In this document: in pieces, positions 24,450 to 42,304 of the stretch | How the letters are laid out: each line of letters opens with the position of its first letter | Numbering within the stretch: position 1 is the first letter of the stretch | Assembly: GCA_947625775.1 (NCBI GenBank) | Contig: CANQPM010000008.1 | Coordinates: forward strand, 1 to 64,000 | Direction: 5' to 3' | DNA: 64,000 nt | Source of the DNA: an uncultured Lachnospiraceae bacterium | GTDB lineage: Bacteria > Bacillota > Clostridia > Lachnospirales > Lachnospiraceae | Program-made: the position numbers and the translations under genes | Notes under the pieces: model-generated | Databases searched by the model: none | Seen by the model: the letters and a program-made list of their open reading frames with translations, nothing else | Told to the model about the DNA's origin: nothing

Positions 24450-24474
24450 AGGCTACCCACTCCCTCTCTTTAAT

Positions 24475-24500
24475 GCTGCGGCGCACAAATGCGCCGCAGC
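24475..24500 (-). terminator. Intra-operon hairpin after the binding-protein gene
   Basis: A perfect 11-bp GC-rich stem (GCTGCGGCGCA, CAAA loop, TGCGCCGCAGC) without a T-run. Such hairpins usually protect the upstream mRNA or cause partial termination, so the binding protein is made in excess over the permeases. Confidence 0.7.
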
Positions 24501-24535
24501 CAATGGTTTATGAAGTCAATCTCTCGGGATACTTA

Positions 24536-26020: not shown

Positions 26021-26095
26021 TTTTAATCCTCCCATACTTGATAATATAGAATTAATTGTTACTGTATATTAATCTGCAAAAATGCAGGATTAATA

Positions 26096-27106
26096 TTAAA
26101 TTTTCCCCACGGAGCTGCCCTCTACCAGCTTTCCGCTGATAACGCACTGCACTATGGCTGTCTCCTTTGGCGTTTCGATAAGACTGATAAGCTTTTTTGC
26201 CGCCTCTATGCCCATCTGCTCCGTATTCTGCCAGTATGTCGTAAGCTTCGGTTCGAGCTGTCCCGCCATCGTGATGCCGTCAAAACCCGCTACCGAAATG
26301 TCCTTTGGTATCTTTAGCCCTCTGTCCTTTATGGCGTTCATGCCGCCGATTGCCGCGAAATCGTCCGCGTACACAATGCAGGTGGGCGGCTGCTTTAAGT
26401 CGAGAAGCCTGTTTGTGATTACTCCTGCTATATGCGAATCCCTGTATTTGCCCTCGCATACGTATTCATCCGATACGTCGATGCCCTTTTCCCGCATAAA
26501 GCGGTAATATGTGGAAAGGCGGTTGGTCGTAACCATCGACTCCTCACCATACATGTAGGCAATGCGCCTGTGCCCCTGGCTGTAAATATAGCCCAAAAGC
26601 TCCTCCATACCCTTTACATTGCTCGACAGTACGGAAATGCGCCCATTGTACACATAGTCAATAGCCACTACGGGCAGGCTGCTCTGCAAAAGCTCAATCA
26701 CTTCGCTGTCCTTGTAATCCGCCACGGCAATCATAACGCCGTCCATTCCTCTGTAAATGGAATGTTCCAGATAAGACATCCTGTCCTTTCTATTCTTTGA
26801 GTTGCTAAGGAATGTTATGTCGTATCCGTTGCGCTCCGCCTCGTTCCTAAAGCTTTCAAGCACCTTTGAGAAATAATCGTGCGTAAGCCCGCTCCCTGAC
26901 GCTTCCTTATAAAGCACTCCGAGATTGTAGCTCCTGTTTGTCTTCAGCGCTCTCGCCGAGGAATTTGGGTGGTAGCCGAGTTCTTTAACCATGCGCTTGA
27001 TTTCATTTTTGGTTTCTTCGCTGATGTCGTCATGATTATTTAAGGCTTTGCTGACAGTAGCAACCGATACCCCGCATACTGCCGCTATATCTTTCATGGA
27101 AACCAT
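26096..27106 (-). CDS. LacI-family transcriptional repressor
   Basis: A 336-residue LacI/GalR protein: helix-turn-helix KDIAAVCGVSVATVSKALNN at the N-terminus, the hinge ELGYHPNSSARALK, and a periplasmic-binding-like sugar-sensing domain (to about 335). It stands between the divergent phosphorylase gene and the transporter operon, so it is the likely local repressor. Its own promoter (27225-27253) is followed at once by a dyad (27203-27222) that is closely similar to one downstream of the phosphorylase promoter, suggesting autoregulation. The effector is unknown; a cello-oligosaccharide is expected. Confidence 0.93.
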   Translation of the reverse strand: MVSMKDIAAVCGVSVATVSKALNNHDDISEETKNEIKRMVKELGYHPNSSARALKTNRSYNLGVLYKEASGSGLTHDYFSKVLESFRNEAERNGYDITFLSNSKNRKDRMSYLEHSIYRGMDGVMIAVADYKDSEVIELLQSSLPVVAIDYVYNGRISVLSSNVKGMEELLGYIYSQGHRRIAYMYGEESMVTTNRLSTYYRFMREKGIDVSDEYVCEGKYRDSHIAGVITNRLLDLKQPPTCIVYADDFAAIGGMNAIKDRGLKIPKDISVAGFDGITMAGQLEPKLTTYWQNTEQMGIEAAKKLISLIETPKETAIVQCVISGKLVEGSSVGKI

Positions 27107-27692: not shown

Positions 27693-30128
27693 ATGAAATT
27701 CGGCTATTTTGATGATGAAAACCGCGAGTACGTCATTACCACCCCAAAAACCCCGCTCCCTTGGATAAATTATCTCGGCTGCAATGAGTTTTTTACGCTC
27801 ATTTCAAATACGTGCGGCGGTTACACCTTTTATAAGGACGCGAAGCTTTTGAGGCTTACGCGCTACCGCTACAATGACGTGCCTTATGACACAAACGGTA
27901 AATACTTCTATATAAAAGACGGCGATACTGTATGGAATCCTGGCTGGCAGCCCACAAAGACTGAGCTTGACTCATATGAATGCCGTCACGGCATCGGCTA
28001 CAGCCGCTTTACCTCGTCAAAGAACGGCATACAGGCGTCTGTGCTTACCTTTGTGCCGATGAATGACAACTGCGAGCTTTCCCAGATTAAAATTAAAAAT
28101 AACGGAAACGCCCCTAAGACGATTTCCCTTTTCTCATATGTGGAGTGGTGTCTGTGGAATGCTGACGACGATTCAAGAAATTTCCAGAGGAATTTAAGCA
28201 CGGGCGAAGTCGAGGTCATCGGCTCTACGATTTACCACAAGACCGAGTACCGTGAGAGGCGAAACCACTACGCAATTTATACTGTTAATACCGCCGTTGA
28301 CGGCTTTGACACGAGCCGCGACAGCTTTATAGGCACGTATAACGGCGCTGACAGACCCGACGCCGTGCTTGCGGGCAAATGCACGAACTCTATCGCAAGC
28401 GGCTGGTTTCCTATCGCCGCGCACCAGATTGACGTGACTCTCGCGCCCAACGAGGAAAAATCCTTCGTATTTTTGCTTGGGTATGTTGAAAATCCTGTCG
28501 ATGAGAAATTTGAGGCTCCGAACGTCGTAAACAAAAAGCCCGCAAACGCTATGATTGCAAAATACAGCTCTGACGCTGACGTGGAAAAGGCGTTTAAGGA
28601 GCTTAACGATTACTGGGCGGATCTGCTTACGCGCTATACTGTTGAATCCTCAAACGACAAGGTGAACAGAATGGTAAATATATGGAACCAGTACCAGTGT
28701 ATGGTTACGTTCAATATGAGCCGCTCTGCTTCTTATTATGAATCAGGCATCGGGCGCGGTATGGGCTTTAGGGATTCGTGCCAGGACTTGCTCGGATTTG
28801 TGCATCTTATTCCCGACAGGGCGAGGGAGCGCATTATTGATATCGCGTCTACACAGTTCCAGGACGGCAGCGCTTACCACCAGTACCAGCCGTTGACGAA
28901 AAAGGGCAATTCCGACATAGGCAGCGGCTTTAATGACGATCCGCTTTGGCTTATTGCGGGCACAAGCGCGTATGTGCGCGAGACGGGCGACATTTCCATA
29001 CTGAATGAAAAGGTGCCTTATGACAATGATATGAGCGTTGCCACATCGCTTATGGAGCATTTGAAGCGCTCATTTGATTATATCGTGAACCACAAGGGAC
29101 CTCACAAGCTGCCGCTTATCGGGCGCGCGGACTGGAATGACTGCCTCAACCTCAACTGCTTTTCGGAAAATCCTGGCGAATCCTTCCAGACCTTTGGCCC
29201 CAGCGAGGGACCTGTAGCGGAGTCGGTGTTTATCGCAGGAATGTTTGTAAAGTACGGCGAGGAATACGCACAGCTGGCGGAGCTGCTCGGAGATGACGCG
29301 GAGGCTAAGCGCGCAAGAGACGAGGTTGCCGTTATGTATGACGCGATTTTGAAGGACGGCTGGGACGGCGAATGGTTTGTGAGGGCATACGATGCATACA
29401 GCCACAAGGTCGGCTCTAACGAGTGCGAGGAGGGCAAAATTTATATTGAGCCGCAGGGGTTCTGTGTGCTTGCGGGCGTCGGCGTAAAGGAAGGGCTTGC
29501 TGTCAAGGCGCTTGACTCTGTAAAGGAAAAGCTTGATACAAAATATGGCATTATGATTTTGCAGCCTGCTTATACAAAGTACCATGTCGAGCTTGGAGAG
29601 ATTTCGTCTTATCCGCCTGGGTACAAGGAGAATGCAGGAATCTTCTGCCACAACAATCCTTGGGTTTCGATAGCGGAAACCGTGGTAGGGCGCGGCGACA
29701 GGGCATTTGAGATTTACAAGAAGACCTGCCCTGCATATGTTGAGGAGATTAGCGAAATTCACAGGACTGAGCCGTATGTGTACTCGCAGATGGTTGCGGG
29801 GCGCGATGCCAAGTACCACGGCGAGGCTAAAAACAGCTGGCTTACTGGTACGGCTGCATGGACCTTTGCGAATATTTCACAGTATATCCTGGGCGTTTAT
29901 CCTACGCATAAGGGACTGCAGGTTAATCCCTGCGTGCCAAGTGATTTTGGCGATTTTAAGCTGACAAGGCGCTTTAGGGGCGTGGTATATCATATCGATG
30001 TTAAGAATCCTGATAAGGTGCAGAAGGGCGTGGCATCTATGACTGTTGACGGAGTTAAGGTTGACGGGTGCGTTATTCCTTTTGATGCTGGGAAGAAAGA
30101 AGTTAATGTTGAGGTTGTAATGGGTTAA
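27693..30128 (+). CDS. cbp: Cellobiose phosphorylase (GH94)
   Basis: An 811-residue GH94 enzyme, the same length as the well-studied Clostridium thermocellum cellobiose phosphorylase. It has the N-terminal beta-sandwich start [18 protein letters not shown], the RNHYA and [14 protein letters not shown]-like stretches (here [14 protein letters not shown]), and the catalytic Asp in [16 protein letters not shown]. It splits cellobiose with phosphate into glucose 1-phosphate and glucose in the cytoplasm, saving one ATP. The SD GGAGG precedes the ATG. It is divergent from the LacI repressor and importer genes and probably regulated by them. Confidence 0.95.
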
Positions 30129-30220
30129 AACATTAAGAAACACTAAGGCGGCAAAAGACGCCGCCTAAGTGTTTCTAAATGTTTAGAAAAATGCAAGGGC
30201 GGCGTTTTTCCGTATATATG
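30126..30220 (+). terminator. Two-hairpin 3' element at the phosphorylase stop codon
   Basis: It starts within the TAA stop codon. A 25-bp stem (30128-30152 with 30160-30184, two mismatches, loop AAAAGAC) is followed by a second stem (AAAAATGC ... GCGTTTTTC). A copy with the same layout is at the end of the chemoreceptor gene near 44565-44661. Likely a terminator and/or mRNA-stabilising element. Confidence 0.7.
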
Positions 30221-30237
30221 GCTTAATATAATGATAT

Positions 30238-30293
30238 GGCGGCAAAATGCCGCCTTATTGTTTTAAAAATATGCAGAGCGGCAAAAATGCCGC
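30238..30293. terminator. Two further small GC-rich hairpins
   Basis: GGCGGCA...TGCCGCC at 30238-30254 and GCGGCA...TGCCGC at 30278-30293, each followed by T-rich sequence. They lie between the convergent phosphorylase gene and the small gene at 30301-30519, and can stop transcription from both sides. Confidence 0.65.
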
Positions 30294-30300
30294 CTTGTGT

Positions 30301-30519
30301 TTAATTGCCGCGGTCGGGTTTTCCTGCGCTGAGGTCTGTGTACATGTCGAGCAGTCCGACGGTTTCGGTGGCTGGTCTGCCGTAGCTTATGCAGCATTTG
30401 TGGGATACTGATTTTTCCTCGTCTGCGCTTTCGTCAAAATTGACGCTCATGCGCGCCGCGCCTAGCTCTGTCTCGCTGTCTAAATGCTTTAAGATATCGT
30501 CGATCATTTTTTCATTCAT
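30301..30519 (-). CDS. Small conserved protein, paralogue of the one at 37050-37301
   Basis: A 72-residue acidic protein. Residues 1-50 align with the protein at 37050-37301: shared EK-IDDI-K-LDS and, later, VS before a Cys/His-containing stretch (here CCISYGRP). The tails differ. I do not recognise a family. The ATG at 30519 is chosen by comparison with the paralogue; a TTG at 30534 is the alternative. It has a conserved helical front and variable Cys-containing end. It is flanked by terminator hairpins and is not part of an obvious operon. Confidence 0.55.
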   Translation of the reverse strand: MNEKMIDDILKHLDSETELGAARMSVNFDESADEEKSVSHKCCISYGRPATETVGLLDMYTDLSAGKPDRGN

Positions 30520-30728
30520 AATTAACACATCCAATCCTGTTGGGGTATTATTTTAAATGACAGTTAAGCGGATATTATCCAAGGCTGCACTATGGGTTCG
30601 CTTTTTTAGGCTGCTGACTGTCTTTTTATATATTTTACACTAAGATATTGACATTTGAAATAGTAAATTATAAAAAAACTTATTTTTAGCATAGGATTTC
30701 ATCAGGTTTCCCATTGTCATGAATTATA

Positions 30729-30761
30729 AAAGGGGCGGCGCAAATTCTGCGCTGCCCCTTT
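30729..30761 (-). terminator. Flagellin terminator
   Basis: AAAGGGGC-GGCGCA, 5-base loop, TGCGC-TGCCCCTTT, followed by TTATAATTC on the minus strand. It lies 40 bases after the flagellin stop codon. It is T-rich on the plus side as well. Confidence 0.85.
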
Positions 30762-30800
30762 GTTTTGATTATACTATTTATCACTCTGTCAAAATGCCAA

Positions 30801-32306
30801 CTAGCCGAGTAATGAAAGTACACCCTGGTTAGACTGGTTAGCCTGTGCAAGCATTGACTGACCTGCCTGTGAAAGGATATTGTTGTTAGAGTATTTAACC
30901 ATCTCGTCAGCCATATCTGTATCACGGATTGCTGATTCTGCTGATGTCGTATTCTCAACAATGTTATCCAAGTTTTTAATCGTATGCTCTAAGCGGTTCT
31001 GTACTGCACCGAGCGCTGAACGCTGTGTAGATACAATCTTGATTGCCTCGCTGATTACGGAGATAGCATTTGTAGCCCTGATATCGTCATCACCGTCAAC
31101 CCTTAAACCGTTGATGCCAAGCCCCTTAGCCGTCAGCGCCTGGATGTTGATAGAAATCTTGTTGTTGTCCGTACCGTCAGCGCCTACATGGAATCTCATT
31201 GCCAATGCGCCAGTCTGATCCTTTGCAGCCTTAACCTTTGTCTGGTCAAGTGCGATCTCGTTGCCAAGAGCGTCATATACCTTCTTAGAATCAGCCCTGC
31301 CTGATGTTGAAATAGTTGCTGAAGCGCCTTGACCTACATCCATTGAAGTAAAATAATCTTTCAGACCATTAGCCGCTATCTTGTTGCCATCCTTATCATA
31401 GAATGAAAATGCCTCAAGGCTGCTGCCTGCAGCGGTTACAGTAGTAGCTGTAATGTTGCTGGTAAGTCCGGACTTAATATCATCTAACTTTATATTGATA
31501 TTGCCGACAACCTTGCCATATGAGTTAATTACAGTGAATGATACTACACCACTAGCGCTTACTGTACCAGAGCCAACTATTGAGAAGTTAGACTTTGCAT
31601 CGCTGCCGTTGAACTGTACAGATGCCTTTACTACATCCTTTGTGACAGTAGTAGTACCAGTAGTTTCAATAACCTTGATGGTTGATGTCGTGATCGTAAG
31701 ACCTTGGTTCTTGAGTGCTTTTGCCAAGGCATTCTGATCCGCTACTGAAGGAGATGTCGCTGTACCCATCGCAGAGAAGCTTACTGATACAGTAACACCG
31801 TTTGCGTCTGCTGTCTTTGAAAAGCTGGCTGTCGCGCTAAGGTTTGAACCCATCTTATAAGCATAGCTGTATGTCTTCTCAACTGAATTGTCGCCCTTCA
31901 AAAGATATGTCTCATTGAACTTGGTTGTCTCTGCTACACGGTCGATTTCCTGTGTAAGCTGGTCAATCTCAGCCTGAATATATGAACGGTCATCTTCTGA
32001 GTTGGGGCTGTTTGCAGCCTGTACTGCCAAATCATTCATTCTCTGTAACATATCATGTACTTCCGTAAGAGCGCCCTCTGCTGTCTGTACAGATGAGATG
32101 CCGTCCTCTGCGTTTGCAGATGCCTGTGTAAGTCCTCTGATCTGCTTTCTCATTTTCTCAGATATAGCAAGACCTGCTGCGTTATCTGCCGCACGGTTAA
32201 TCTTGTAGCCTGAAGAAAGCTTCTCTGTTGATTTTGACAAAGATCCTTGTGTAATGCCTAACATACGGTTAGAGTTCATTGCCTGTAAATTGTGCTGTAC
32301 TACCAT
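30801..32306 (-). CDS. Flagellin
   Basis: A 501-residue flagellin: conserved N-terminal D0/D1 helices (VQHNLQAMNSNRMLG, SGYKINRAADNAAGLAISE, MNDLAVQAANS), a Thr/Ser/Gly/Val-rich central region (about 150-390) that is surface-exposed on the filament, and C-terminal D1/D0 helices (QRSALGAVQNRLEHTIKNL ... ILSQAGQSMLAQANQ). SD AAGGAGG is strong. The 222-base leader from csrA contains a hairpin with GGA in its loop (32409-32429), a probable CsrA site. No promoter of its own is evident near the gene, so it may depend on transcription through csrA, and hence on the invertible segment upstream. Confidence 0.97.
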   Translation of the reverse strand: MVVQHNLQAMNSNRMLGITQGSLSKSTEKLSSGYKINRAADNAAGLAISEKMRKQIRGLTQASANAEDGISSVQTAEGALTEVHDMLQRMNDLAVQAANSPNSEDDRSYIQAEIDQLTQEIDRVAETTKFNETYLLKGDNSVEKTYSYAYKMGSNLSATASFSKTADANGVTVSVSFSAMGTATSPSVADQNALAKALKNQGLTITTSTIKVIETTGTTTVTKDVVKASVQFNGSDAKSNFSIVGSGTVSASGVVSFTVINSYGKVVGNINIKLDDIKSGLTSNITATTVTAAGSSLEAFSFYDKDGNKIAANGLKDYFTSMDVGQGASATISTSGRADSKKVYDALGNEIALDQTKVKAAKDQTGALAMRFHVGADGTDNNKISINIQALTAKGLGINGLRVDGDDDIRATNAISVISEAIKIVSTQRSALGAVQNRLEHTIKNLDNIVENTTSAESAIRDTDMADEMVKYSNNNILSQAGQSMLAQANQSNQGVLSLLG

Positions 32307-32408
32307 AATCTTACCTCCTTGTTTTGCCTGCCGCGCTTATTTGGCTTTGCGTCCATAAATTTCACTTTTGTAAATCTTACATCCACAAATCCGCGCTTTG
32401 GCTTTGCC

Positions 32409-32429
32409 GTGGGAAATTCCGTTTCCCAC
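32409..32429 (-). promoter_or_regulatory. Probable CsrA-binding hairpin in the flagellin leader
   Basis: On the minus strand GTGGGAAA, loop CGGAA, TTTCCCAC: a perfect 8-bp stem presenting GGA in the loop. Further GGA triplets (TGTGGATG, TATGGACG) and the SD AAGGAGG itself lie downstream, as in the two-site CsrA control of Bacillus hag. Confidence 0.6.
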
Positions 32430-32528
32430 CGTCTGTTTTTGTTCCTTATTTAGTTTTGATTTATAATATCCGAAACTGTCCACGTATCGGCGCGCCTGCT
32501 TTGGGCGGACAGCCTCGGTTATTAACCT

Positions 32529-32750
32529 TTATATTTCCTGTATTTCCGTCTTTTCTGCTGCTGCCTCTGCTGCTTTTTTAGCCGCTCTTTTTATTGCACG
32601 CTTTTTGATGGCTCTGCCTCTTGCGACATTTACATCCTTTGGAGCGTCTATCATCACCCTAAGCTGCCTGTCATTACCACCAAGAAAGGTGATTTTGATA
32701 TTATCGCCTATCATCAAGTATTCTTCCTTGGGTACTGTAAGCATCAGCAT
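32529..32750 (-). CDS. csrA: Carbon storage regulator CsrA, divergent
   Basis: A 73-residue CsrA homologue: MLMLTVPKEEYLMIGDNIKI, then LGGNDRQLRVMIDAPKDVNVARGRAIKKR matching the beta-strands and the RNA-binding VxVxR end of the family. The usual MLILTRKxGE start is altered to VPKEE, and the C-terminus is an Ala/Lys-rich tail. CsrA dimers bind GGA hairpins in leaders and block ribosomes; in Firmicutes the main target is flagellin mRNA. It is directly upstream of flagellin. SD GGAGG. No fliW is seen in this window. The invertible segment begins 83 bases upstream. Confidence 0.88.
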   Translation of the reverse strand: MLMLTVPKEEYLMIGDNIKITFLGGNDRQLRVMIDAPKDVNVARGRAIKKRAIKRAAKKAAEAAAEKTEIQEI

Positions 32751-32832
32751 ATAAAAACCTCCTTGTTTTTGTCTGCAGCTTTAATGCATATTGATAAGGC
32801 TCTGCCATTTCTGGCTTGTGTTCCGCGCTATA

Positions 32833-32859
32833 CAACATTTTGGGTAAAATGTTGCATTT
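32833..32859. repeat. Left 27-bp inverted repeat of the invertible segment
   Basis: It is identical, in reverse complement, to 33801-33827. The repeat is itself a dyad (CAACATTTT, GGGT, AAAATGTTG); the asymmetric GGGT centre gives it direction. Identity stops at both ends. Confidence 0.92.
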
Positions 32860-32886
32860 GCTATTTTTCATAAAACAAATTATTAT
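32858..32886 (+). promoter_or_regulatory. Possible promoter of the recombinase gene
   Basis: TTGCTA, 17 bases, TATTAT. It overlaps the -10 region of the divergent promoter at 32882-32910, so the two would compete. Confidence 0.4.
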
Positions 32887-32910
32887 ATTAAAGGAAAGGA
32901 AATCTGACGA
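32882..32910 (-). promoter_or_regulatory. Possible leftward sigma-A promoter toward csrA
   Basis: On the minus strand: TCGTCA, 17 bases, perfect TATAAT. Inside the invertible segment; transcription would cross the left repeat into csrA in the present orientation. Confidence 0.45.
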
Positions 32911-32938
32911 AAGGAAACGTTTAGAGAAGGGTATAACT

Positions 32939-33529
32939 ATGAGCACAATGTCGCCTATAAAGGACAAAAAAGAGCTGGAGGCTATGAAAAAATATTTTTT
33001 GGGAAAAAACGAGATAAGAAACTATGCGCTGTTCTGCGTAGGGATTAATACCGCCCTGCGCATAGGCGATATTTTAAGGCTGCGCTGGAAAGACGTGTAT
33101 GATTTTGGCAGCCGTTCATTTAAAAAACATCTGCAATTAAAAGAGCAGAAGACAAAGAAAAGGGCTGAGATACTTTTAAATAAAGGGGTAATAAATGCGT
33201 TAAAAAAGCTGCTTGCATATTTTAACAAAAACCATGTGACGATAGACGAAAACACATATATATTCACAGGCAGGAAAAACATGGAAAAACCGCTGAGCCG
33301 CTCGCAGGCGTACCGCATTATAAACAGTGCCGCCAAAGCGCTTAAAATAACTGGAAATATCGGCTGCCACTCACTTCGTAAAACCTTCGGATATTTTGCG
33401 GCACGCAGCGGCATTTCTTCCGTATTGCTTATGCATATCTACAATCATTCTTCATTCCCGATAACAATGCGTTATCTGGGAATAGAACAGGACGAGCGCG
33501 ATGAGGTGTTTATGCGGATAGCGCTTTAG
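32939..33529 (+). CDS. FimB/FimE-size tyrosine recombinase
   Basis: A 196-residue tyrosine recombinase that consists almost only of the catalytic domain: Arg41 (TALRIGDILRLRW), His144 and Arg147 (CHSLRKTFG), His170 (IYNHSS) and the nucleophile Tyr179 (MRYLG). The size and lack of an arm-binding domain match DNA invertases such as FimB (200) and FimE (198) rather than phage integrases. The ATG at 32939 follows GAGAAGGG. It is enclosed by perfect 27-bp inverted repeats and beside csrA-flagellin, so inversion of this segment is the most likely task. Confidence 0.88.
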   Translation: MSTMSPIKDKKELEAMKKYFLGKNEIRNYALFCVGINTALRIGDILRLRWKDVYDFGSRSFKKHLQLKEQKTKKRAEILLNKGVINALKKLLAYFNKNHVTIDENTYIFTGRKNMEKPLSRSQAYRIINSAAKALKITGNIGCHSLRKTFGYFAARSGISSVLLMHIYNHSSFPITMRYLGIEQDERDEVFMRIAL

Positions 33530-33744
33530 CTACTGTTTTTGCCTATATAACATCATTTTGACAGTTTGCTGCAGCTTTTCATATGTTGTATGAGTAAATC
33601 TGGCTGCCTTTTTTTGAAATTTTTAACTGTCTTATTTTAACTGCCTTACGGCACAACTATGCCTTTTTGAAGCAGCCGCAGCACATTCTTTATGTTCTTA
33701 AAAATTATTTTCCATAAAATTAAAAATTTTTTTCAGATAAGGGG

Positions 33745-33771
33745 TAAAGTATTTTAAACAATAACCGATAT
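33745..33771 (+). promoter_or_regulatory. Sigma-28 (SigD)-type promoter at the right end of the invertible segment
   Basis: TAAA, 15 bases, ACCGATAT, against the consensus TAAA-N15-GCCGATAT: one mismatch. Predicted start about 20 bases before the right repeat. In the present orientation it fires rightward into the 3' end of the NUDIX gene; inversion would aim it at csrA and flagellin. Confidence 0.7.
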
Positions 33772-33800
33772 ATAAAGTGTAAGAACAAAACAGCGTTAAA

Positions 33801-33827
33801 AAATGCAACATTTTACCCAAAATGTTG
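33801..33827. repeat. Right 27-bp inverted repeat of the invertible segment
   Basis: Reverse complement of 32833-32859 without mismatch. Here the palindrome extends to 33832 (AAATGCAACATTTT, ACCC, AAAATGTTGCATTT) and is followed by a T-run, so the RNA of this copy could also terminate. Confidence 0.92.
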
Positions 33828-33899
33828 CATTTTTAATTATAGACATCAATTATACAATTTATACAAATTTATTTATCAAATTAAGTTTTAATGAAAACC

Positions 33900-34460
33900 T
33901 TATGTTTTACTCCACAAATAACAGTACGCCTGCGTTCTTGCCGCGAATCGGCTGGTCTTTAAAAGCTCGCGGATCTGCTCCTTTGTATGCCAGTGCGGCT
34001 CTATTTCCTCCACTGTGGACGTGCTTTCATGAAACTCGCCGCGCGCTTTGCCTACGACGCACACATTTATTTCATTGCTGAAGCCCACCGCGCTGTAGCT
34101 TGGCCCGATAAAGTCGTCAACCTCATAAAGCTCAAGCCCTGTTTCCTCCCTGAGCTCGCGCTTTGCGCTCTCTATCAGCTCCTCGCCCTCGTCGATAAGC
34201 CCTGCGGGAAAGTTGTAAACCCAGTCGCCCACCGCGAGGCGGAACTCCCTGCAGACAAGTATTTTCTCCCCGCTCTCGTCAGTCGCGATAATGACTACCG
34301 AATCCGCCTTTTTGCCGTGAAGCGCCTCAAAGTCCTCCATATCCTTCTGGCGGCTTATGATTTCGTACACCTTTTCCCTGCTGTCGCTTGTTTCATAAGT
34401 GATATCGTATCTTGTAATAAATTTTCCTTCTTCCTTTTTGGTAAGTCCTTTAAATTTCAT
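33900..34460 (-). CDS. NUDIX hydrolase (ADP-ribose pyrophosphatase type)
   Basis: A 186-residue NUDIX protein with a complete Nudix box (GLIDEGEELIESAKRELREE followed by TG), preceded by the NFPAG segment usual in ADP-ribose/nucleoside-diphosphate-sugar pyrophosphatases. It likely clears ADP-ribose or related compounds. Its 3' end is 68 bases beyond the right inverted repeat, so the sigma-28 promoter in the segment would transcribe it in antisense. Confidence 0.9.
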   Translation of the reverse strand: MKFKGLTKKEEGKFITRYDITYETSDSREKVYEIISRQKDMEDFEALHGKKADSVVIIATDESGEKILVCREFRLAVGDWVYNFPAGLIDEGEELIESAKRELREETGLELYEVDDFIGPSYSAVGFSNEINVCVVGKARGEFHESTSTVEEIEPHWHTKEQIRELLKTSRFAARTQAYCYLWSKT

Positions 34461-34533
34461 TGTGTCTGCCCTGCCCCTTCCTTAATCAAACATTTATGAC
34501 AACAGAAAATTCGCAATTCGCAAAGCGCGTTTT

Positions 34534-37017
34534 CTATTGTTTATTCCAAAAGTCCCTTGCCTTTTGAGCCGCATTGTCCGCATTTATCACCTCAAAGCTG
34601 CTCCATTCGCGCGGAAACAGCCTTCTGTACTGGTACTCAAGAAAACGCTCGTCCAAAAGCGCGACTATTCCGACATCTTCATTTGTGCGTATCACGCGGC
34701 CTGCGGCCTGCAGCACCTTGTTCATTCCTGGAAAGCGGTACGCATAATCAAAACCGTTTTCGCCGTGGGCGTCAAAATACTTTTTCAAAAGATCGCGCTC
34801 ACAGCATACCTGCGGTATCCCCGTGCCAACTATGACCGCGCCAATCAGGCTGTCTCGCTTTAAATCTATGCCCTCCGAAAAAATGCCGCCCATCACGCAG
34901 AAGCCAACCAGCGTTTTTTCGCCTTCCTCCTCTATCTCAAAATCAATGCTTTCATTTAAGTCACATTCCGCGTTTCCCTGAAATTTAAACAGGAATTCCT
35001 CACGGCTCTCCTCACTCATGCGCTCTTTTTGGATTATGCAGTCCATGCTTTCAGCAGCATAATATTTGTCCATAAAACATTCGTAAATTTCTTCAAGCAG
35101 GCTGTGCGAGGGCGCAAAAACCATATAATTGCCGCAGCGCGCGCTCACTATGCTGTGTATATATCCCGCAATGCGCATAAACTCGTCCCTGCCGCGCCGC
35201 GTGTACCTGCTGGTCACATTGTCCGCTATAAAAAGCGCCCGTTTTTCCTCGTCAAACGTCGATTTGGCATATACCTCATAATCGTCCTTCTCCCCTCCGA
35301 GCAGCTTTTTGTAATACTGTATCGGCAGAAGCGTTGCGGAAAAAAGTATCGCGCTGCGCCCGCGCTGCATACATTGGCGCAGGTTCGCCGCAGGATTTAC
35401 ATTGAAAAGCCTGAGCATAAAATCGCCGTTGTCCATTAGCTGGCTGTACGCGGCATAATTGTCGTCCATCAGCTCATACATATTTAAAAAATGCGCGGTT
35501 TCAAAATAAAACTCCAAAACCTCATTTCTGTCTGAAAAGCTGTCGTGGTCGTCAAGGAAGTCGTCAAGAGCCGAGTACATACGTACAAGCGCGTTTACAA
35601 AGCCGTCTATGCCCTCCTCTATGCACCAATCCTCGCAGCCGCGCTTCATCACCAGAAGCTCTTTGTTGCACTTGTCAATAAGCTTCACCACACGCGGGGC
35701 AATATCCTTTAAAAGCTTTCTCGTCTTTAAAAAATCCGCCTTGAAAAGCGATGCGCTGTACATTTCCCGCCCGCGCTCCAAAAGGTTATGCGCCTCGTCG
35801 ATGAGGAATATATAATCGCGCTGCGCCCCGTCGGCAAAAAAGCGTTTGAGATACACGCGCGGATCAAACACATAGTTGTAATCGCAGATTACCGCGTCGG
35901 CAAAAAGACTCATATCAAGGCTCATTTCAAAAGGACATACGTTATGCTTTTTGGCATAGGCGGATATTGTCTCCCGCGAAAAATGCTCCTCGTTTGTCAG
36001 CATATCATACATAGCGTTATTTATTCTGTCAAAGTGCCCGTCAGCATACGGACAGGCATCGGGATTGCACTCTGCGGGCGCGTCGGCATCGTTTTCTTTC
36101 AGAAAGCATATCTTGTCGCGTGCTGTAATAACAACTGTTTTTAATCGCAGACCGTTCTGTGAAAGAAGTCCAAAGCACTCCTGCGCCACTGTGCGCGTGA
36201 TAGTCTTTGCCGTCAGATAAAAAATTTTTTCGGCAAGCCCCTCTCCCATAGCCTTCACAGCAGGAAAAACAGTTGATATTGTTTTGCCTACGCCTGTAGG
36301 CGCCTCCAAAAATAACATACGTTTGTGATAGATGGTGCGGTAAACGTTTGACGCAAGCTCCTTCTGCCCTTCACGGTATGGGAACGGAAAGGCAAGCTGT
36401 TTTATTGATAACGTGCGTTTTTCATTCCATTCAAACTGGAAATCAGCCCATTTCCTGTATTCCCGCATAAGCTCCAAAAACCAGCCTTCAAGCTCATCAT
36501 ATGTATAGTCCTCATGAAAATACTTTATCTCCTCTGTCTCAATATTGCAGTAGGTCATGCGGACTCCGATATTTTCAAGCCTGCACTCGTCGGCATAGAT
36601 AAACGCATAGCATTTTGCCTGCGCCAGATGCACGCCGACAGGCTCAGCAATGCGGCGAAGCTCCTTGTACGTGCATTTTATCTCATCTATAACCGCTTGC
36701 TTGTCGGATTGCGCGGCGGGCAGGGAGTTTTTTTCAGCATCAGGTGTTATATAACTATTGTTATGATGTTCTTCCCAGTCACAGTCGATAATGCCGTCTG
36801 CTCTGCCTTCTATTATAATATTGTATTTTGGAGTTTTATATACATACTTAAGACCGACCTCGGCGTGGTATTCGCTTGATGCCCTTTTTTGTATCATTCT
36901 GTGGAGGCGCCCTCCCTCCTGCATTGCAGTGTCAGCGCCGCCTGATTTTCTGTTGTCTATGCTGCCCTCACGCAGAATGAACTCCACGAGCTGGCGCACT
37001 GAAACCCTTATTTCCAT
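34534..37017 (-). CDS. PD-(D/E)XK nuclease fused to XPD/DinG-like helicase
   Basis: An 827-residue protein. Residues about 1-185 form a Cas4/RecB-like PD-(D/E)XK nuclease (EGRADGIID, then VIDEIKCT, then the HLAQAKCYAF helix). From about 210 there is a superfamily 2 helicase: APTGVGKT Walker A, IDEAHNLLERGR, and C-terminal helicase motifs ending in QAAGRVIRTNEDVG. Four Cys (about residues 320-360: C-NPDA-C and, further on, NVCPFE) are placed as in the iron-sulphur cluster of XPD/DinG. It likely unwinds and trims DNA in repair. It stands alone between NUDIX and a small gene. Confidence 0.88.
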   Translation of the reverse strand: MEIRVSVRQLVEFILREGSIDNRKSGGADTAMQEGGRLHRMIQKRASSEYHAEVGLKYVYKTPKYNIIIEGRADGIIDCDWEEHHNNSYITPDAEKNSLPAAQSDKQAVIDEIKCTYKELRRIAEPVGVHLAQAKCYAFIYADECRLENIGVRMTYCNIETEEIKYFHEDYTYDELEGWFLELMREYRKWADFQFEWNEKRTLSIKQLAFPFPYREGQKELASNVYRTIYHKRMLFLEAPTGVGKTISTVFPAVKAMGEGLAEKIFYLTAKTITRTVAQECFGLLSQNGLRLKTVVITARDKICFLKENDADAPAECNPDACPYADGHFDRINNAMYDMLTNEEHFSRETISAYAKKHNVCPFEMSLDMSLFADAVICDYNYVFDPRVYLKRFFADGAQRDYIFLIDEAHNLLERGREMYSASLFKADFLKTRKLLKDIAPRVVKLIDKCNKELLVMKRGCEDWCIEEGIDGFVNALVRMYSALDDFLDDHDSFSDRNEVLEFYFETAHFLNMYELMDDNYAAYSQLMDNGDFMLRLFNVNPAANLRQCMQRGRSAILFSATLLPIQYYKKLLGGEKDDYEVYAKSTFDEEKRALFIADNVTSRYTRRGRDEFMRIAGYIHSIVSARCGNYMVFAPSHSLLEEIYECFMDKYYAAESMDCIIQKERMSEESREEFLFKFQGNAECDLNESIDFEIEEEGEKTLVGFCVMGGIFSEGIDLKRDSLIGAVIVGTGIPQVCCERDLLKKYFDAHGENGFDYAYRFPGMNKVLQAAGRVIRTNEDVGIVALLDERFLEYQYRRLFPREWSSFEVINADNAAQKARDFWNKQ

Positions 37018-37049
37018 TTTTGCTTATCTCAATATTCAAGACATATTTG

Positions 37050-37301
37050 TCAGTCGCATCCTCCAAAATTACGCACCTCACCCGTAGCCCATGGACTTCC
37101 TACATCGCATCGCCCGTGGTGGTACTTGGCGCTGACTGTGCCCTCCTTCTGCTTTTCGGAAACCTCTACCTTTATGCGGCTTACGCCGCCTGTAGTCTTG
37201 CTGTCAAGCATTTTTACAATATCGTCTATTTCCTTTTCCTGCATTTTCTGTCTTTTTTCCTCGAGCTCGTCCATATCCTGTAATCCACCGTAAAGTGACA
37301 T
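37050..37301 (-). CDS. Small conserved protein, paralogue of the one at 30301-30519
   Basis: An 83-residue protein with a charged helical first half (DMDELEEKRQKMQEKEIDDI, VKMLDS) and a second half with Gly, His and two Cys (KYHHGRCDVGSPW ... FGGCD). It shares EK-IDDI-K-LDS and the VS motif with the protein at 30301-30519. The ATG at 37301 follows GGAGGG. It sits 32 bases upstream of the helicase gene on the same strand and may be co-transcribed. Function unknown. Confidence 0.65.
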   Translation of the reverse strand: MSLYGGLQDMDELEEKRQKMQEKEIDDIVKMLDSKTTGGVSRIKVEVSEKQKEGTVSAKYHHGRCDVGSPWATGEVRNFGGCD

Positions 37302-37462
37302 AAAATCCCTCCTATGATACTGTGTGTTTATGACATATTCCATGTTACCACATTACAGCTCATTTTCCCATTATTTTTTTGAATTTTTCAGGCTTTTCAC
37401 GTCTCTATCCCATAAACGCGGCAACTGCATATAATCAGCCCACAACCATCAGCCGCTGCCCT

Positions 37463-38161
37463 CTACTTCCCCGCAATCTCCATTCTGTCAAGCACTCCCT
37501 GCACGTCAATTCCCTGATGGGTAAAATAAATCTGGCATATCTGCTCTGCCAGCGCACGGTCAAGCCTGCGTGTTTTTACGATATTTTCAACAGACTTTCC
37601 TCTCTTTAAATCGCCGACTACCGCCGCGACAGTCTCCTGTAAATCCCCGTCACCGAACTTTGGGCTGGCATTATCTGACTGCTTGCCACACTGCCCTTTT
37701 GGTGATAAATCTATCCTCTTTACCACAAATTCCCCGTTTTCCGTATCAAACTCAAGCACTGCCATTGTCAGCGGCATCCCGAAACGCCTTGCACCGCAGC
37801 TGCCTGGGTTGAGCCAAAGCGTTCCGCCCACTGTTTTTTCCTCATATTTGTGTGAATGTCCGTAAATTATGATATCCGCATTCTCCGCTTTATCCGACGC
37901 TTTCTTTTTATTGTGGACCATATAAATCTTTCTGCCGCACAGTTCAAAAAACGCTTCATCTGGAATGTCCTGCGCCCATTCGCCGTCACAGTTTCCTCTC
38001 ACCGCAATTATTTTAGTCATTTCATTAAGCCTGTCATACGTCTTTTGGTCGGCAATGTCCCCTCCGTGCAGCACCAAATCCGCTGTTTTGATGATTTCAA
38101 GGACTTCAGGTCTTAAAATGCCATGTGTGTCCGATATCACAGCCGCCTTATATGCACTCAT
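37463..38161 (-). CDS. YfcE/MJ0936-type phosphoesterase with C-terminal extension
   Basis: A 232-residue calcineurin-like phosphoesterase: ISDTHGILR, HGGDIADQ, VRGNCDGE, HNKKKAS (in place of the usual THG(H) region) and YGHSHKYE supply metal ligands. About 75 extra residues after the catalytic domain form a charged helical region (GDLKRGKSVENIVKTRRLDR). Compared with the protein at 16192-16674, this one is longer and one His-containing loop is altered, so the substrate may differ. The ATG at 38161 is taken as start. Confidence 0.87.
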   Translation of the reverse strand: MSAYKAAVISDTHGILRPEVLEIIKTADLVLHGGDIADQKTYDRLNEMTKIIAVRGNCDGEWAQDIPDEAFFELCGRKIYMVHNKKKASDKAENADIIIYGHSHKYEEKTVGGTLWLNPGSCGARRFGMPLTMAVLEFDTENGEFVVKRIDLSPKGQCGKQSDNASPKFGDGDLQETVAAVVGDLKRGKSVENIVKTRRLDRALAEQICQIYFTHQGIDVQGVLDRMEIAGK

Positions 38162-38208
38162 AATTTAATCCCCCATTTTCAGATGTCAACGAACCTATAT
38201 TAATTTTG

Positions 38209-39516
38209 TCACACCATAATCATATCCGAATAATGCCCTGACAAAAATTCCCGTATTCCCACATAGCAAATTCCGTTTTCATCAGTCCAAGGCACAATCG
38301 CATCCTTTACAACAACGATTTTTTTAAACGAGTTGCCGATTTTTATAAGAGAAGCCGTTTCCTGCGCCCTTTTTTCAGATGAATCTATGTTCAATGCTGA
38401 CTGCACATATATCCTGCCATCACCCGACTTTGCGATAAAATCGACCTCAAGCCATTTACGGATGTCTTTCCCTTCGCTGTTTCGGAAGCGGTGTTCCACC
38501 ACGCCGACATCAACACTATATCCTCTTAAAACAAGCTCATTATACAGGATATTCTCCATAATAAGATTTTCCTCCTGCTGCCTGAATTCAAGAAGGGCAT
38601 TCCTAAGCCCTACATCCGTAAAATAATATTTGAGCGGTGTTCCGATATACTTGCGTCCTTTTACATCATATCGGAATGCCTTGCTTATTATAAATGATTC
38701 AATAAAATAATCAAGATAAGTGTCTACCGTTGTCTGGCTGATTTTAATATTCAATTTGGATTCAAATGTATCCGCAATCTTTTTTGGATTAGTCAATGCC
38801 CCGATAGACGACGCCGTAATTCGGATAATATTATCAAGCACGCTTTTATCATTTTTGATATCATGCCTCTCAAGCACGTCCGACATATAAGTTTTATCGA
38901 AAAGATTTTCAAGATACTCTATTTTAGCTTTTCTGTCTGGCAAAGACAATATACGCGGCAGCCCTCCGTATGTCAGATATTCCTGCCAGACTTTTTCAGA
39001 CTCCTCCCCATATGCCCTCACAAGCTCTGAATAACAAAACGGATATAGATTTATCACATCGCCTTTATCGCGGAACTGCGTCACAATATCAGAGGACAAC
39101 ATTTTAGAATTGCTTCCCGTAATATAGATATCCGCATTTTTTATCTTCATAAGTCCGAGGACGACATCAACAAAACCTATCGTATCGCCTGTCCCCTGCA
39201 GCCAGGGATTTTCGATTTCTTTTACAAACTGGATTTCGTCAATAAAAACATAATATCTTTGGCTTGTATTTTTGACAAATCCGCGGACACAGGCATCAAG
39301 CTCTATCGGATTTCTATATCTTGCATTTGCCGCATCGTCCAAAGGCAAAAGCAATATATTTTCCTCTTTTATTCCGTTTTCAGTCAAATAATTTTTATAT
39401 AACTCAAACAACAGATAAGACTTCCCGCATCTGCGGAGTCCTGTGACAATTTTTATAAGTCCATTGTCTTTTCGTGAGATTAACTGGTTCAGATAATAAT
39501 TTCTTTTTACTTCCAT
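38209..39516 (-). CDS. AAA ATPase with DUF4143 domain
   Basis: A 435-residue protein: N-terminal P-loop ATPase (GLRRCGKSYLLFELYKN, with FIDEIQFVKE as Walker B and TGSNSKML as sensor), then the DUF4143 region (about 210-400), which has a restriction-endonuclease-like fold (LEVDFIA near 360). Such stand-alone ATPases are common in many copies in gut Clostridia, and their role is unknown; links to defence or toxin control have been suggested for the wider group. SD GGAGA. It is monocistronic and divergent from the padR operon. Confidence 0.85.
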   Translation of the reverse strand: MEVKRNYYLNQLISRKDNGLIKIVTGLRRCGKSYLLFELYKNYLTENGIKEENILLLPLDDAANARYRNPIELDACVRGFVKNTSQRYYVFIDEIQFVKEIENPWLQGTGDTIGFVDVVLGLMKIKNADIYITGSNSKMLSSDIVTQFRDKGDVINLYPFCYSELVRAYGEESEKVWQEYLTYGGLPRILSLPDRKAKIEYLENLFDKTYMSDVLERHDIKNDKSVLDNIIRITASSIGALTNPKKIADTFESKLNIKISQTTVDTYLDYFIESFIISKAFRYDVKGRKYIGTPLKYYFTDVGLRNALLEFRQQEENLIMENILYNELVLRGYSVDVGVVEHRFRNSEGKDIRKWLEVDFIAKSGDGRIYVQSALNIDSSEKRAQETASLIKIGNSFKKIVVVKDAIVPWTDENGICYVGIREFLSGHYSDMIMV

Positions 39517-39635
39517 AATGTTCTCCGAAAGTTTTTTGCCGCATTTGTCAAAAAACTTTTCTATACTGTTTTTAATTTATGTCTATTATACTAAATTATA
39601 CAGAAAACCGCCATATTTAAAACAATATTTTTCAC

Positions 39636-39664
39636 TTGACTTTTACATATTGTTGCATTACAAT
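39636..39664 (+). promoter_or_regulatory. Promoter of the padR operon
   Basis: TTGACT, 17 bases, TACAAT. Confidence 0.65.
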
Positions 39665-39673
39665 GTACTTAGT

Positions 39674-39686
39674 TATACAAAGTATA
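39674..39686. promoter_or_regulatory. Putative PadR operator
   Basis: TATACAAAGTATA, a perfect 5-3-5 dyad at the predicted transcription start, as expected for autoregulation by PadR. Confidence 0.5.
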
Positions 39687-39723
39687 TGAAAAACAAACGC
39701 TTATCGCAAACGGGGGAATAATT

Positions 39724-40074
39724 ATTAAGGGAAAATATGAACGCGAGCTTAAAAAGGGAGTCCTTGACATGCTTGTCTTAAAGCTGCTTGAAGGCGAACC
39801 AAAATACGGATACCTCATCATTCAGGAGCTTAAAGAAAAAAGCGGAGGCACATTTTTACTAAAGGACGGCACGCTGTACCCTATTTTGTACCGACTGGAG
39901 GACGAAAAACTTGTCGCATGCCGCTGGAGCGAAGCGGAGGGAAAACAGGTGCCGAGAAAATATTATGAGATCACTGAGGCGGGCAGGCAGGCACTTGCGG
40001 AAATGGAAAGCGTCTGGCAAAGCATGGCTGAGGGCGTTTTTAAAATTATGAAGGAGGCAGGGCATGACAGCTGA
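39724..40074 (+). CDS. PadR-family transcriptional regulator (non-ATG start)
   Basis: About 116 residues: winged helix with LVLKLLEGEPKYGYLIIQEL, GTLYPILYRLEDEKLV and YYEITEAGRQAL, all typical of PadR. The first in-frame ATG (39769) would cut off the conserved first helix encoded just upstream (KGKYERELKKGVLD). Upstream of that helix there is no ATG, GTG or TTG, only ATA-ATT-ATT behind a strong GGGGGA. I place the start at the ATT at 39724, a rare start codon. It represses its own operon, probably via the dyad at 39674. Confidence 0.82.
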   Translation: MKGKYERELKKGVLDMLVLKLLEGEPKYGYLIIQELKEKSGGTFLLKDGTLYPILYRLEDEKLVACRWSEAEGKQVPRKYYEITEAGRQALAEMESVWQSMAEGVFKIMKEAGHDS

Positions 40075-40711
40075 AAAGTATGTAAACGCAATCGTTAAAA
40101 AAATCAAGTGCGGCAAAAAACGCAGGGAGGAAATCAGACAGCAGCTTTTATCGGATATCAGCGCGCAGGTGTCACAGGGGCGCAGGCTTGACGACATTAT
40201 GCGACAGATGGGCGTCGCGTCTGAAATTGCCGAGGGCTTTAATGAAAATCTTTCCAGCGACGAGCGGAAAAAATACAGGCGCGCAAGACGCATCAGAATA
40301 TTTGTCTCGATTTTTGCCGTTATCATAATACTGATTGTGGGCATTTATGCATATCTGCCGAAATCATTCCCTATCGAGGACAGCGCCTATTTTCAAAAGG
40401 ACATCGTAGAGGAATGTATTAAAAACACCGCAATTCAAGTCGGGGAAAACAATTACGCCGCACTGCAGGCAAACGCTACGGAACAAATGAAGCCAATCTT
40501 TGCCGAGGATTACCTGCCAAATGCAAAAAATCAGCTTTCAAGCGACTGGGGTGAGCTAAAATCCTTTGGCAGCATTTACCTGACAGAAGTGTCACAATCG
40601 GGGAAACATTTTGCCGTGGGTGAAATCACGGTCGTTTATGAAAATATCACTGTCACATACCGCCTGTCGTTTGATAAGGATATGAGATTGGCGGGAATGT
40701 ATATGCGATAA
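40064..40711 (+). CDS. HAAS/DUF3887-like membrane protein
   Basis: A 215-residue protein: N-terminal helical HAAS-type domain (about 1-70), one membrane helix (about 82-103, IFVSIFAVIIILIVGIYAYL), then an extracytoplasmic domain (about 110-215) of the DUF3887 type (alpha-beta, EECIKNTAIQVGENNYAAL, FAVGEITVVYENITVTYRL). It overlaps padR by 11 bases, so the pair is translationally coupled, the usual padR-HAAS arrangement. Function unknown; perhaps it senses envelope state. Confidence 0.8.
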   Translation: MTAEKYVNAIVKKIKCGKKRREEIRQQLLSDISAQVSQGRRLDDIMRQMGVASEIAEGFNENLSSDERKKYRRARRIRIFVSIFAVIIILIVGIYAYLPKSFPIEDSAYFQKDIVEECIKNTAIQVGENNYAALQANATEQMKPIFAEDYLPNAKNQLSSDWGELKSFGSIYLTEVSQSGKHFAVGEITVVYENITVTYRLSFDKDMRLAGMYMR

Positions 40712-40731
40712 ATGAAAGGTATAAACTTTTT

Positions 40732-41067
40732 ATGGCTGAAACAATCATAACAATCGTAATACTTCTTATCTGCTCCCTGCCTTTGGTAATAATCGGCATC
40801 TCCCAGTACAAAAGCAAAAAGCCTGTCGGATTCTGGTCGGGGCAGAAACCGCCCAAATCCGACAGAATACGCGATATTGCGGCATATAATAAAAAGCATG
40901 GCATAATGTGGATTTTATTTGGGCTTGGCATACCCGTCTCATTTTTTGTCGGAATGCCCTTGGGAGAAGAATGGTCGTGTATTTTTATGATAACAGAGTG
41001 CGTCGGCGGCATTATCGGCATAATGGTTTATCATACACACTTGGATAAAGTATATCTTATTAAATAA
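40732..41067 (+). CDS. Small membrane protein, three helices
   Basis: A 111-residue membrane protein: helices at about 4-22, 58-76 and 80-98, with a polar loop KSKKPVGFWSGQKPPKSDRIRD between the first two, reminiscent of SdpI/DUF3784-like proteins. It follows the HAAS gene by 20 bases and probably belongs to the padR operon. Function not known. Confidence 0.6.
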   Translation: MAETIITIVILLICSLPLVIIGISQYKSKKPVGFWSGQKPPKSDRIRDIAAYNKKHGIMWILFGLGIPVSFFVGMPLGEEWSCIFMITECVGGIIGIMVYHTHLDKVYLIK

Positions 41068-41152
41068 AGCCAACGTATTTTTTACGTATATCAATAATCC
41101 TACAATTCCGATAAATTGTGCGCGCCCGTAATTAATTTATTTGTGTTTTGGG

Positions 41153-41181
41153 TTGAAATTGAGGGGCTAAAGTGTTATTAT
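41153..41181 (+). promoter_or_regulatory. Promoter of ptb-buk
   Basis: TTGAAA, 17 bases, TATTAT, about 40 bases upstream of the ptb ATG. Confidence 0.6.
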
Positions 41182-41189
41182 TTTAACAA
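41172..41189. promoter_or_regulatory. Possible Rex operator at the ptb -10 box
   Basis: GTGTTATTATTTTAACAA against the Rex consensus TTGTTAANNNNTTAACAA: the right half is perfect, the left half has two mismatches. Rex senses NADH/NAD+ and controls butyrate genes in clostridia, so the location makes sense. Confidence 0.4.
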
Positions 41190-41226
41190 ATAAATTATTA
41201 ATGCAAAACGCATACGGAGGTTTTTT

Positions 41227-42138: not shown

Positions 42139-42250
42139 GCTGCTTTAAGTCTAAAGAACAGAACCAAGCTGCTCTAAGATTAAAAAACTAACCTGCTCTA
42201 GGACTGCTCTAAGACCAAAAAACTAATCAGCTCTAAAAACACAAAAGACG
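42139..42250 (+). repeat. Degenerate tandem repeat between ptb and buk
   Basis: Three to four imperfect units of about 35-40 bases built around AAGCTGCTCTAAGATTAAAA and CTAACCTGCTCTAGG. They directly follow the ptb stop. No function is evident; the repeat type suggests slippage. Confidence 0.6.
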
Positions 42251-42274
42251 TGTTTTAAGACCTGCTAAGTTTTT

Positions 42275-42304
42275 GAAAGAACGCCAAAGGGGCGGCGTTC
42301 TTTC
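42275..42304 (+). terminator. Hairpin between ptb and buk
   Basis: A perfect 11-bp stem (GAAAGAACGCC with GGCGTTCTTTC). The following bases are only weakly T-rich, so it probably lets part of the transcription through or protects the ptb message. Confidence 0.65.

Follow-up and report, generated by a model that had tools for sequence, protein, structure and literature searches.

Among the switches described so far that resemble the locus considered here, the fim switch of E. coli is operated by FimB and FimE, which are tyrosine recombinases of ~200 amino acids that consist of a catalytic domain only and that act upon an invertible promoter for a surface filament; the genes for both recombinases lie outside the inverted segment. 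According to an excerpt of PMC5903667, that segment is 296 bp long and contains the promoter only, while a fimbrial segment of Providencia stuartii (844 bp, putatively invertible and bounded by 14-bp imperfect repeats) encloses its recombinase gene. The flg switch of C. difficile consists of 154 bp between 21-bp repeats, is located upstream of the early flgB operon and regulates that operon after transcription start; its recombinase, RecV, is also responsible for inversion of the cwpV switch (PMC5386303, in excerpt). Finally, the Hin gene of Salmonella lies within a ~1-kb segment that is itself inverted by Hin (excerpts of PMC9368917 and PMC3798978); Hin is a serine recombinase that acts at 26-bp hix sites with the help of an enhancer to which Fis binds (PMC3798978, again in excerpt).

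The present analysis concerns a window of 64,000 nucleotides (the whole stretch of DNA that was analyzed) from an uncultured Lachnospiraceae bacterium, whose genome (termed G000 below) comprises 3.75 Mb in 42 contigs. Within this window, a short segment very probably acts as a self-contained DNA-inversion switch for the sigma-28 promoter of a csrA-flagellin operon, with the gene for the recombinase located inside the DNA that is inverted. A preliminary description of the window had proposed such an arrangement, which is now strongly supported by the behavior of a second locus (on contig C14) and by the central bases of the recombination sites. The features that are referred to throughout are the following:

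30801-32306, minus strand: flagellin, 501 aa, with domains PF00669 and PF00700
32529-32750, minus strand: cassette csrA, 73 aa, PF02599 at E 4.1e-17, starting 83 bases from the repeat
32830-32857, no strand: left recombination site, 28 bp (11-bp arm, TGGGTA center, 11-bp arm)
32858-32886, plus strand: TTGCTA-N17-TATTAT, probably a sigma-A promoter for the recombinase, adjoining the inner edge of the left site
32882-32910, minus strand: sigma-A-like site directed toward csrA, TCGTCA-N17-TATAAT, of a kind that only some copies have
32939-33529, plus strand: reading frame of the tyrosine recombinase (196 aa, a catalytic domain alone), between the two sites
33650-33668, plus strand: weak terminator-like hairpin and T-run, recognized by eye, between recombinase and sigma-28 promoter
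33745-33771, plus strand: sigma-28 promoter TAAAGTATTTTAAACAATAACCGATAT, at the right end of the segment, pointing outward and away from csrA
33803-33830, no strand: right recombination site, 28 bp, palindromic, its center the reverse complement of TGGGTA
33831-33834, plus strand: T-run just beyond the right site, away from flagellin

The perfect 27-bp inverted repeats that first drew attention to the locus (32833-32859 and 33801-33827, enclosing the 995 bp from 32833 to 33827) were confirmed. The functional unit, however, is better drawn as a pair of 28-bp sites, of which the left (32830-32857) is an inverted copy of the right (33803-33830) at 27 of 28 positions, with one base different. In the common form that these sites share with other loci, two 11-bp arms flank a 6-bp center (ATGCAACATTT-TNNNNA-AAATGTTGCAT); each site is a near-palindrome, and its direction is set only by the asymmetric center. 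The two centers of the window are oriented toward each other, an arrangement for which a tyrosine recombinase is well established to invert the intervening DNA. The arm motif of the window’s sites is common to 31 loci, and the recurrence of a site pair in 31 of the 45 recombinase loci examined excludes chance as its source; the 14 loci in which a finder that searches for this one arm motif returned no 28-bp pair are truncated, have lost a site, are distant or carry other types of site. If transcribed, the right site of the window is predicted by folding to form an RNA hairpin.

The protein encoded between the two sites is, as had been proposed, a tyrosine recombinase reduced to its catalytic domain: PF00589 is its sole Pfam family at E 0.001 (E 1.6e-24; 87.1 bits, against a cut-off of 27.1), and residues R41, K71/K74, H144-x-x-R147, H170 and Y179, which are invariant in an alignment of 25 homologues, are presumably the R-K-H-R-H-Y catalytic residues expected for this class. 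An AlphaFold2 model (mean pLDDT 80, pTM 0.80, with weaker values of 47-73 over the last 60 residues) has a predicted fold that resembles the catalytic domains of XerA and Cre, less certainly so at the C-terminus; it matches 30 solved structures at E <=0.001, with XerA first and both Tn1549 Int and Cre included. The ratio dN/dS is 0.05 for the recombinases of the window and of C14 and ranges from 0.06 to 0.13 in four further pairs of copies (one of them with saturated dS), a signature of purifying selection which indicates that the copies have been kept working. The local recombinase is the putative catalyst of inversion, a role supported by its co-conservation and by this selection.

The preliminary description had portrayed one invertible sigma-28 segment; the switch is supported, but it is not single and belongs instead to a bank of cassettes. 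The recombinase is present in this genome in seven close copies (69-100% identity, all at E 9.3e-78 or better): that of the window (on contig C8), one on C14, which is 99% identical to the window’s, four on C9 and one that is truncated where contig C22 begins. All six complete copies of the segment stand before csrA and flagellin, and in each of these cassettes csrA is the gene in the middle, with the segment on one side and flagellin on the other; the flagellin partner of the seventh cassette may be one located right where contig C16 begins. Six further recombinase matches are weak (at most 41% identity), one of them being an integrase gene beside C14’s segment. Read in the direction of the recombinase, the order of elements in the segment is a site, the probable sigma-A promoter, the recombinase, a hairpin and T-run (in several copies), the sigma-28 promoter (TAAAGTATT...CCGATAT) and the second site.

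Inversion can be seen both between two paralogous cassettes of this genome and between genomes at one locus. When the window is aligned to C14 with BLAST, flagellin and csrA align in reverse and the segment aligns forward; the segment of C14 is thus reversed relative to the state of the window, and its sigma-28 promoter reads into csrA and flagellin. The 14 bases outside the right site of the window are those found outside the left site of C14 (14/14), and the bases outside the left site of the window are those outside the right site of C14 (13/14). The opposite orientation had been suggested as something to look for in related genomes, and it was found at the C14 locus. Positions 8844-26408 of G034:C10 and 29160-45624 of G033:C20 are colinear, apart from gaps, with 36900-16344 of G000:C14 (79-94% identity per piece), across ~20 kb on the flagellin side and up to the csrA-side site. 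In both relatives the segment itself, at 85% identity, aligns with the opposite orientation: its sigma-28 promoter points toward csrA and flagellin in the window’s genome, and away from them in G034 and G033. Both sites of G034 contain the same center as C14 (TGGATA). G033:C20 has that center at its left site and has lost its right site, so that an intact switch of opposite orientation is seen in G034 alone; that of G033:C20 is probably locked in the ‘OFF’ orientation. One locus that occupies two orientations across three genomes constitutes direct sequence evidence of inversion.

Two further observations concern the surroundings of this locus. In G033:C20 (L095, ~6598 to end), the right site breaks off after AAAAAATG, and what follows is unrelated and contains a hairpin, which by eye may represent one end of an insertion element. 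Between G034:C10 and C14 no match was found in the flank at the far end of the segment, and colinearity therefore applies to the flagellin side only; C14 has an integrase gene in that flank, and this 381-aa integrase-like gene (L030 8123-9268, on G000:C14), which ends ~120 bp from the segment, suggests an integrated element there.

The centers of the sites tell a similar story across many loci. In all 31 loci with paired 28-bp sites the two centers are identical, an outcome that partner shuffling reproduced in at most 7 of 31 loci over 20,000 trials. Mismatches between left and right sites amount to 40/341 positions in the outer arms and 4/341 in the inner arms, and to 0/186 in the centers. 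The choice of pair cannot explain this identity, because 29 of the 31 loci offer only a single candidate pair. At the same time, 22 different centers occur among the 31 loci, and the six complete cassettes of this genome have six different ones. Identity within loci, combined with difference between most of them, is what exchange of strands within each locus would predict, and locus-specific centers would tend to confine exchange to their own locus. A private center for every locus was rejected as a strict rule: the C22 copy, which is truncated, has the same center as C9_95k, and two loci of G034 also share one.

The sigma-28 promoter reported at the right end of the window’s segment, pointing away from csrA, was confirmed, and the 19 other close-group loci that have a site pair carry one in the corresponding position. 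Its -35 element starts 55-60 bp before the right site in these 20 loci, and 45-47 bp before it in ten of the 11 distant loci; the remaining one has no strict match. An exact search of the whole genome for TAAAG-N15-CCGATAT gives 11 matches (seven in the segments, one before a fixed flagellin on C19, and three elsewhere); when one mismatch is allowed there are 51, compared to 40 for a reversed-pattern control, and only exact matches are therefore informative. A gene for a FliA-type sigma factor is present on C3 (264.5 bits, cut-off 189.6). At the opposite end of the segment, a TTGATA or TTGCTA element with a 17-base spacer abuts the site in 12 of 20 close-group loci and is absent in the distant group.

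Possible terminators were sought around the outward-pointing promoter. An automatic scan of the window’s segment called none, and the terminator readings given here come from inspection and folding. The hairpin at 33650-33668 has a stem of ~4 pairs in the window and of 6 in some C9 copies (by eye). Just beyond the site, in the six bases leading away from flagellin, 4-6 are T in 19/19 close-group loci with the orientation of the window, as opposed to 0-3 on the csrA side; the contrast is weaker in the 11 distant loci (2-5 vs 0-2). The folded stem of the right-site hairpin includes part of the T-run.

Catalysis by the window’s recombinase, the states of transcription, the rate of switching and any role for CsrA are what we infer from sequence, and the mechanism would proceed as follows. 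The sigma-A promoter just inside the left site would drive expression of the small tyrosine recombinase, which would bind the four 11-bp arms of both sites and exchange strands across their identical 6-bp centers. The DNA between the sites would thereby be turned over, recombinase gene included. In the ‘ON’ state (as at C14), the sigma-28 promoter at the end of the segment would read through the site into csrA and flagellin, and the site’s hairpin would presumably allow the transcript to pass. In the ‘OFF’ state (as in the window), the same promoter would be directed outward, and the site’s hairpin together with the T-run would probably stop its transcript. That the window is at present in the sigma-28 OFF state, as had been suggested, agrees with the direction of the promoter and is deduced from it; a sigma-A-like site directed toward csrA exists in the window and in some other copies, so OFF may be leaky.

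This last site is the basis of an alternative, in which inversion exchanges one promoter for another, such that sigma-A drives csrA and flagellin in the present orientation and sigma-28 does so in the other. The weak sigma-A-like promoter that had been noticed does exist (32910-32882, TCGTCA-N17-TATAAT, 10/12 consensus matches), and five further close-group copies (C14, C9_121k, C9_126k, G034_C19a and G034_C19b) have TCGTCA or TCGTTA followed, after a spacer of 17-18 bases, by TATAAT. It is kept in some copies only, however: no such site was found in C9_95k, C9_131k, G033_C4, G035_C62 and others. Across 31 loci the mean best sigma-A score is 8.5 toward csrA and 8.7 toward the recombinase, compared to 7.6 for shuffled sequence, a loose comparison because the scan toward csrA covered a longer stretch; furthermore, a scan for promoters returned 7 promoter-like sites in 1.5 kb where shuffling leads one to expect 4.5. 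On this balance an exchange of promoters appears unlikely.

Considerably less probable still is the idea that the segment or the cassette is mobile DNA, with the recombinase moving DNA and the inverted repeats serving as transposon ends. The preliminary description had regarded presence or absence of the segment in relatives, together with a target duplication, as the mark of a transposon. The sequences that flank the window’s cassette (to ~30520 and from ~33900) do lie only 66, 49 and 9 bp apart in G033, G034 and G035, respectively, with no cassette between them, and distant relatives of the recombinase are carried by mobile DNA: the best listed identities are 46% in a scan of viral contigs (best 80 of 381 loci), 48% among 182 matching phage records and 44% among 2017 matching plasmid records, with every phage and plasmid match below 60%. 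What is missing in these three relatives, however, is the whole cassette rather than the repeat-bounded segment, which means that either the cassette was acquired whole, together with its flagellin and csrA, or these relatives lost it; the sites do not bound such a unit. The intergenic sequence at the cassette-free locus is too diverged to reveal any target duplication, and the flanks of the sites at C8 and C14 display exchange, with no duplication found. The site centers are inverted rather than direct repeats and so do not represent a target duplication, and the C14 locus differs between genomes by inversion and not by presence or absence of the segment. The segment was accordingly rejected as a transposon, while a mobile origin is retained as a minor alternative for the cassette in its entirety. 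Homology between C8 and C14 extends from the stop codon of flagellin to ~32 bp past the far site, and since these ends differ from the sites, the move of the cassette is not ascribed to the recombinase. An interspersed repeat of ~85 bp at 30127-30210 accounts for most of the 51 (G034) and 27 (G033) matches of the left flank.

The arrangement is found well beyond this genome, in a comparison that relied upon assemblies, many of them incomplete. Within the genus, a match to the recombinase at E 1e-30 or better is present in 23 of 38 genomes, and in 17 of the 38 the recombinase adjoins csrA and/or flagellin. Across the family, 33 of 397 sampled genomes match it at 1e-45, and these represent 31 genera, its own included. 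Of 28 loci fetched from other genera, 17 adjoin csrA and/or flagellin; the remaining 11 have no match to either within <=1.5 kb on each side, and relatives of the recombinase may therefore also serve at other places. In L155, L152 and L140/L027, such relatives are located between inverted repeats that are not beside flagellin; by eye, their neighbors are sugar and glycan genes and a gene that resembles a ribosome-hibernation factor, and these are possibly invertible segments with other targets. Signs of decay are also seen: the recombinase at L041 (G032) adjoins a C-terminal remnant of flagellin and lacks a csrA match, and that at L145 (G345) contains one in-frame stop.

Orientation was compared in 50 loci, defined by a recombinase with a csrA or flagellin match nearby; this definition leaves out the 11 other-genus loci mentioned above, the C22 copy, which is truncated, and those loci of the genus that have no target, while eight family matches (other than G000’s) and four genus matches in G001 and G028 lie outside the loci examined. 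A sigma-28 score of at least 10 occurs on the 3' side of the recombinase in 43 of the 50 and on the 5' side in 3, whereas shuffled regions from 9 loci reach a score of 10 in 28 of 900 cases and 11 in 4. When orientation was counted by hand at a score of 10, the promoter pointed away from csrA in 44 loci, toward it in 1 (C14) and was unclear in 5. One of the 44 (G053) has an additional match of that score directed toward csrA, outside its segment, and in two loci (G385 and G337) the recombinase is turned around relative to the promoter, which still points away from csrA. Frequent and unbiased switching would lead one to expect more ON loci, so that switching may be rare, biased or regulated: ON cells may form a minority in the gut, inversion may be regulated, or the assemblies may display the majority state. 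This bias is a result that every model must accommodate. It might also be read as the mark of a relic, in which the recombinases are inactive and all loci frozen, and to which the in-frame stop, the decayed cassette and the lost right site of G033:C20 could be added, but that is the least probable reading of those considered here, given the inversion of C14 with respect to two relatives, the dN/dS values of 0.05-0.13 in five pairs, and centers that are identical in every pair and different between most loci.

With about seven csrA-flagellin cassettes and one flagellin behind a fixed promoter, the genome appears to contain a bank of phase-variable flagellins. It has 11 Flagellin_N and 7 CsrA matches in total; it is the C19 flagellin whose sigma-28 promoter is fixed, and the canonical csrA lies upstream of it. 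The flagellins of the cassettes are 85-98% identical over their first 140 residues and 28-80% identical in the middle. Judged by sequence, the cassette csrA is a divergent paralogue of the canonical one: the N-terminus of its product reads MLMLTVPKEEY in five of six cassettes and MLMLTLPKEEY in the sixth, as compared with MLALSRRKGEA in the canonical C19 copy, whose Arg-Arg it lacks. Among 15 loci, pairwise identities of flagellin correlate with those of recombinase (r 0.25, with 15 of 2000 permutations as high) and of csrA (r 0.33, 2 of 2000); no correlation was found between recombinase and csrA (r 0.07, 592 of 2000), and inheritance of the cassette as a single block is therefore not claimed.

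The leaders of these genes share several short elements. A hairpin, GTGGGAAACGGAATTTCCCAC (window 32409-32429, minus strand), has ANGGA in its loop, with a T-A to C-G pair change in C9_121k, and ACAAGGAGG precedes both csrA and flagellin in the cassettes whose leaders were compared (those of the window, C14 and C9); we take both, by their motifs, to be candidate CsrA-binding sites. GCAGGCGCGCC is common to the leaders of the cassettes and of the fixed flagellin. A search of Rfam across 30500-34500 gave two sub-threshold matches, both taken as chance; a weak match to RsaE/RoxS at 30658-30761 (plus strand; 31.7 bits, where the gathering score is 79) is probably of that nature.

These observations invite a broader and distinctly tentative model, a ‘switchboard’ of about seven independent cassettes, each equipped with a recombinase and most having their own 6-bp address to keep inversion local, in which the CsrA of a cassette that is switched ON would silence other flagellins in the manner of FljA, and which would be convergent with Hin and extend throughout the Lachnospiraceae. 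If so, one commensal could display many possible flagellar coats, with one flagellin dominant at a time. Flagellins of the Lachnospiraceae are dominant gut antigens; if their genes switch singly by inversion, then harmless residents present a moving target to host immunity, and flagellin expression in these bacteria would have to be read per cell and per locus. The segments would also furnish many small, natural, self-contained invertible promoters, and a test set for the confinement of tyrosine recombination by spacer identity. A search of the open-licence literature turned up no description of this system among the papers listed, which is weak evidence of absence.

How, then, does the locus compare with the systems described at the outset? 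The assertion that known recombinases lie outside the DNA that they invert is correct for fim and for the flg switch of C. difficile, but not for Hin or, as far as the excerpted sources go, for Providencia stuartii, where the recombinase lies inside. With fim the window’s recombinase has in common a length of ~200 aa, a catalytic domain that stands alone and a promoter for a surface filament; it differs in that its gene is located between the sites, and its scores (49.6 bits for PRK09870, cut-off 221, and 39.3 bits for PRK09871, cut-off 222) fall below those cut-offs, although the alignments are co-linear over most of its length. The flg switch of C. difficile likewise involves a tyrosine recombinase, phase-variable flagella and a member of the Clostridia, and differs in its size, its repeats, its early flgB target and the step that is regulated. 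The Providencia segment resembles that of the window in enclosing a recombinase, but is fimbrial, whereas the target here is flagellin. The closest likeness in layout is to the H segment and fljBA of Salmonella: an inverted segment of ~1 kb, short inverted sites, the recombinase inside, a promoter at one end that reads into a flagellin operon with a regulator (FljA there, csrA here), and another flagellin outside the switch. Hin, however, is of the serine class, whereas the only Pfam family matched by the window’s recombinase, PF00589, places it in the tyrosine class; Hin operates at one locus, as opposed to about seven here, in many copies per genome; and the regulator here precedes flagellin, belongs to another protein family and acts only by conjecture on other flagellins. 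The window’s switch thus shares the layout of the H segment with a different class of recombinase, a different family of regulator and more loci, and would work like Hin while standing outside the Hin family: a second, independent solution to Hin’s problem that employs the same layout and a different recombinase chemistry.
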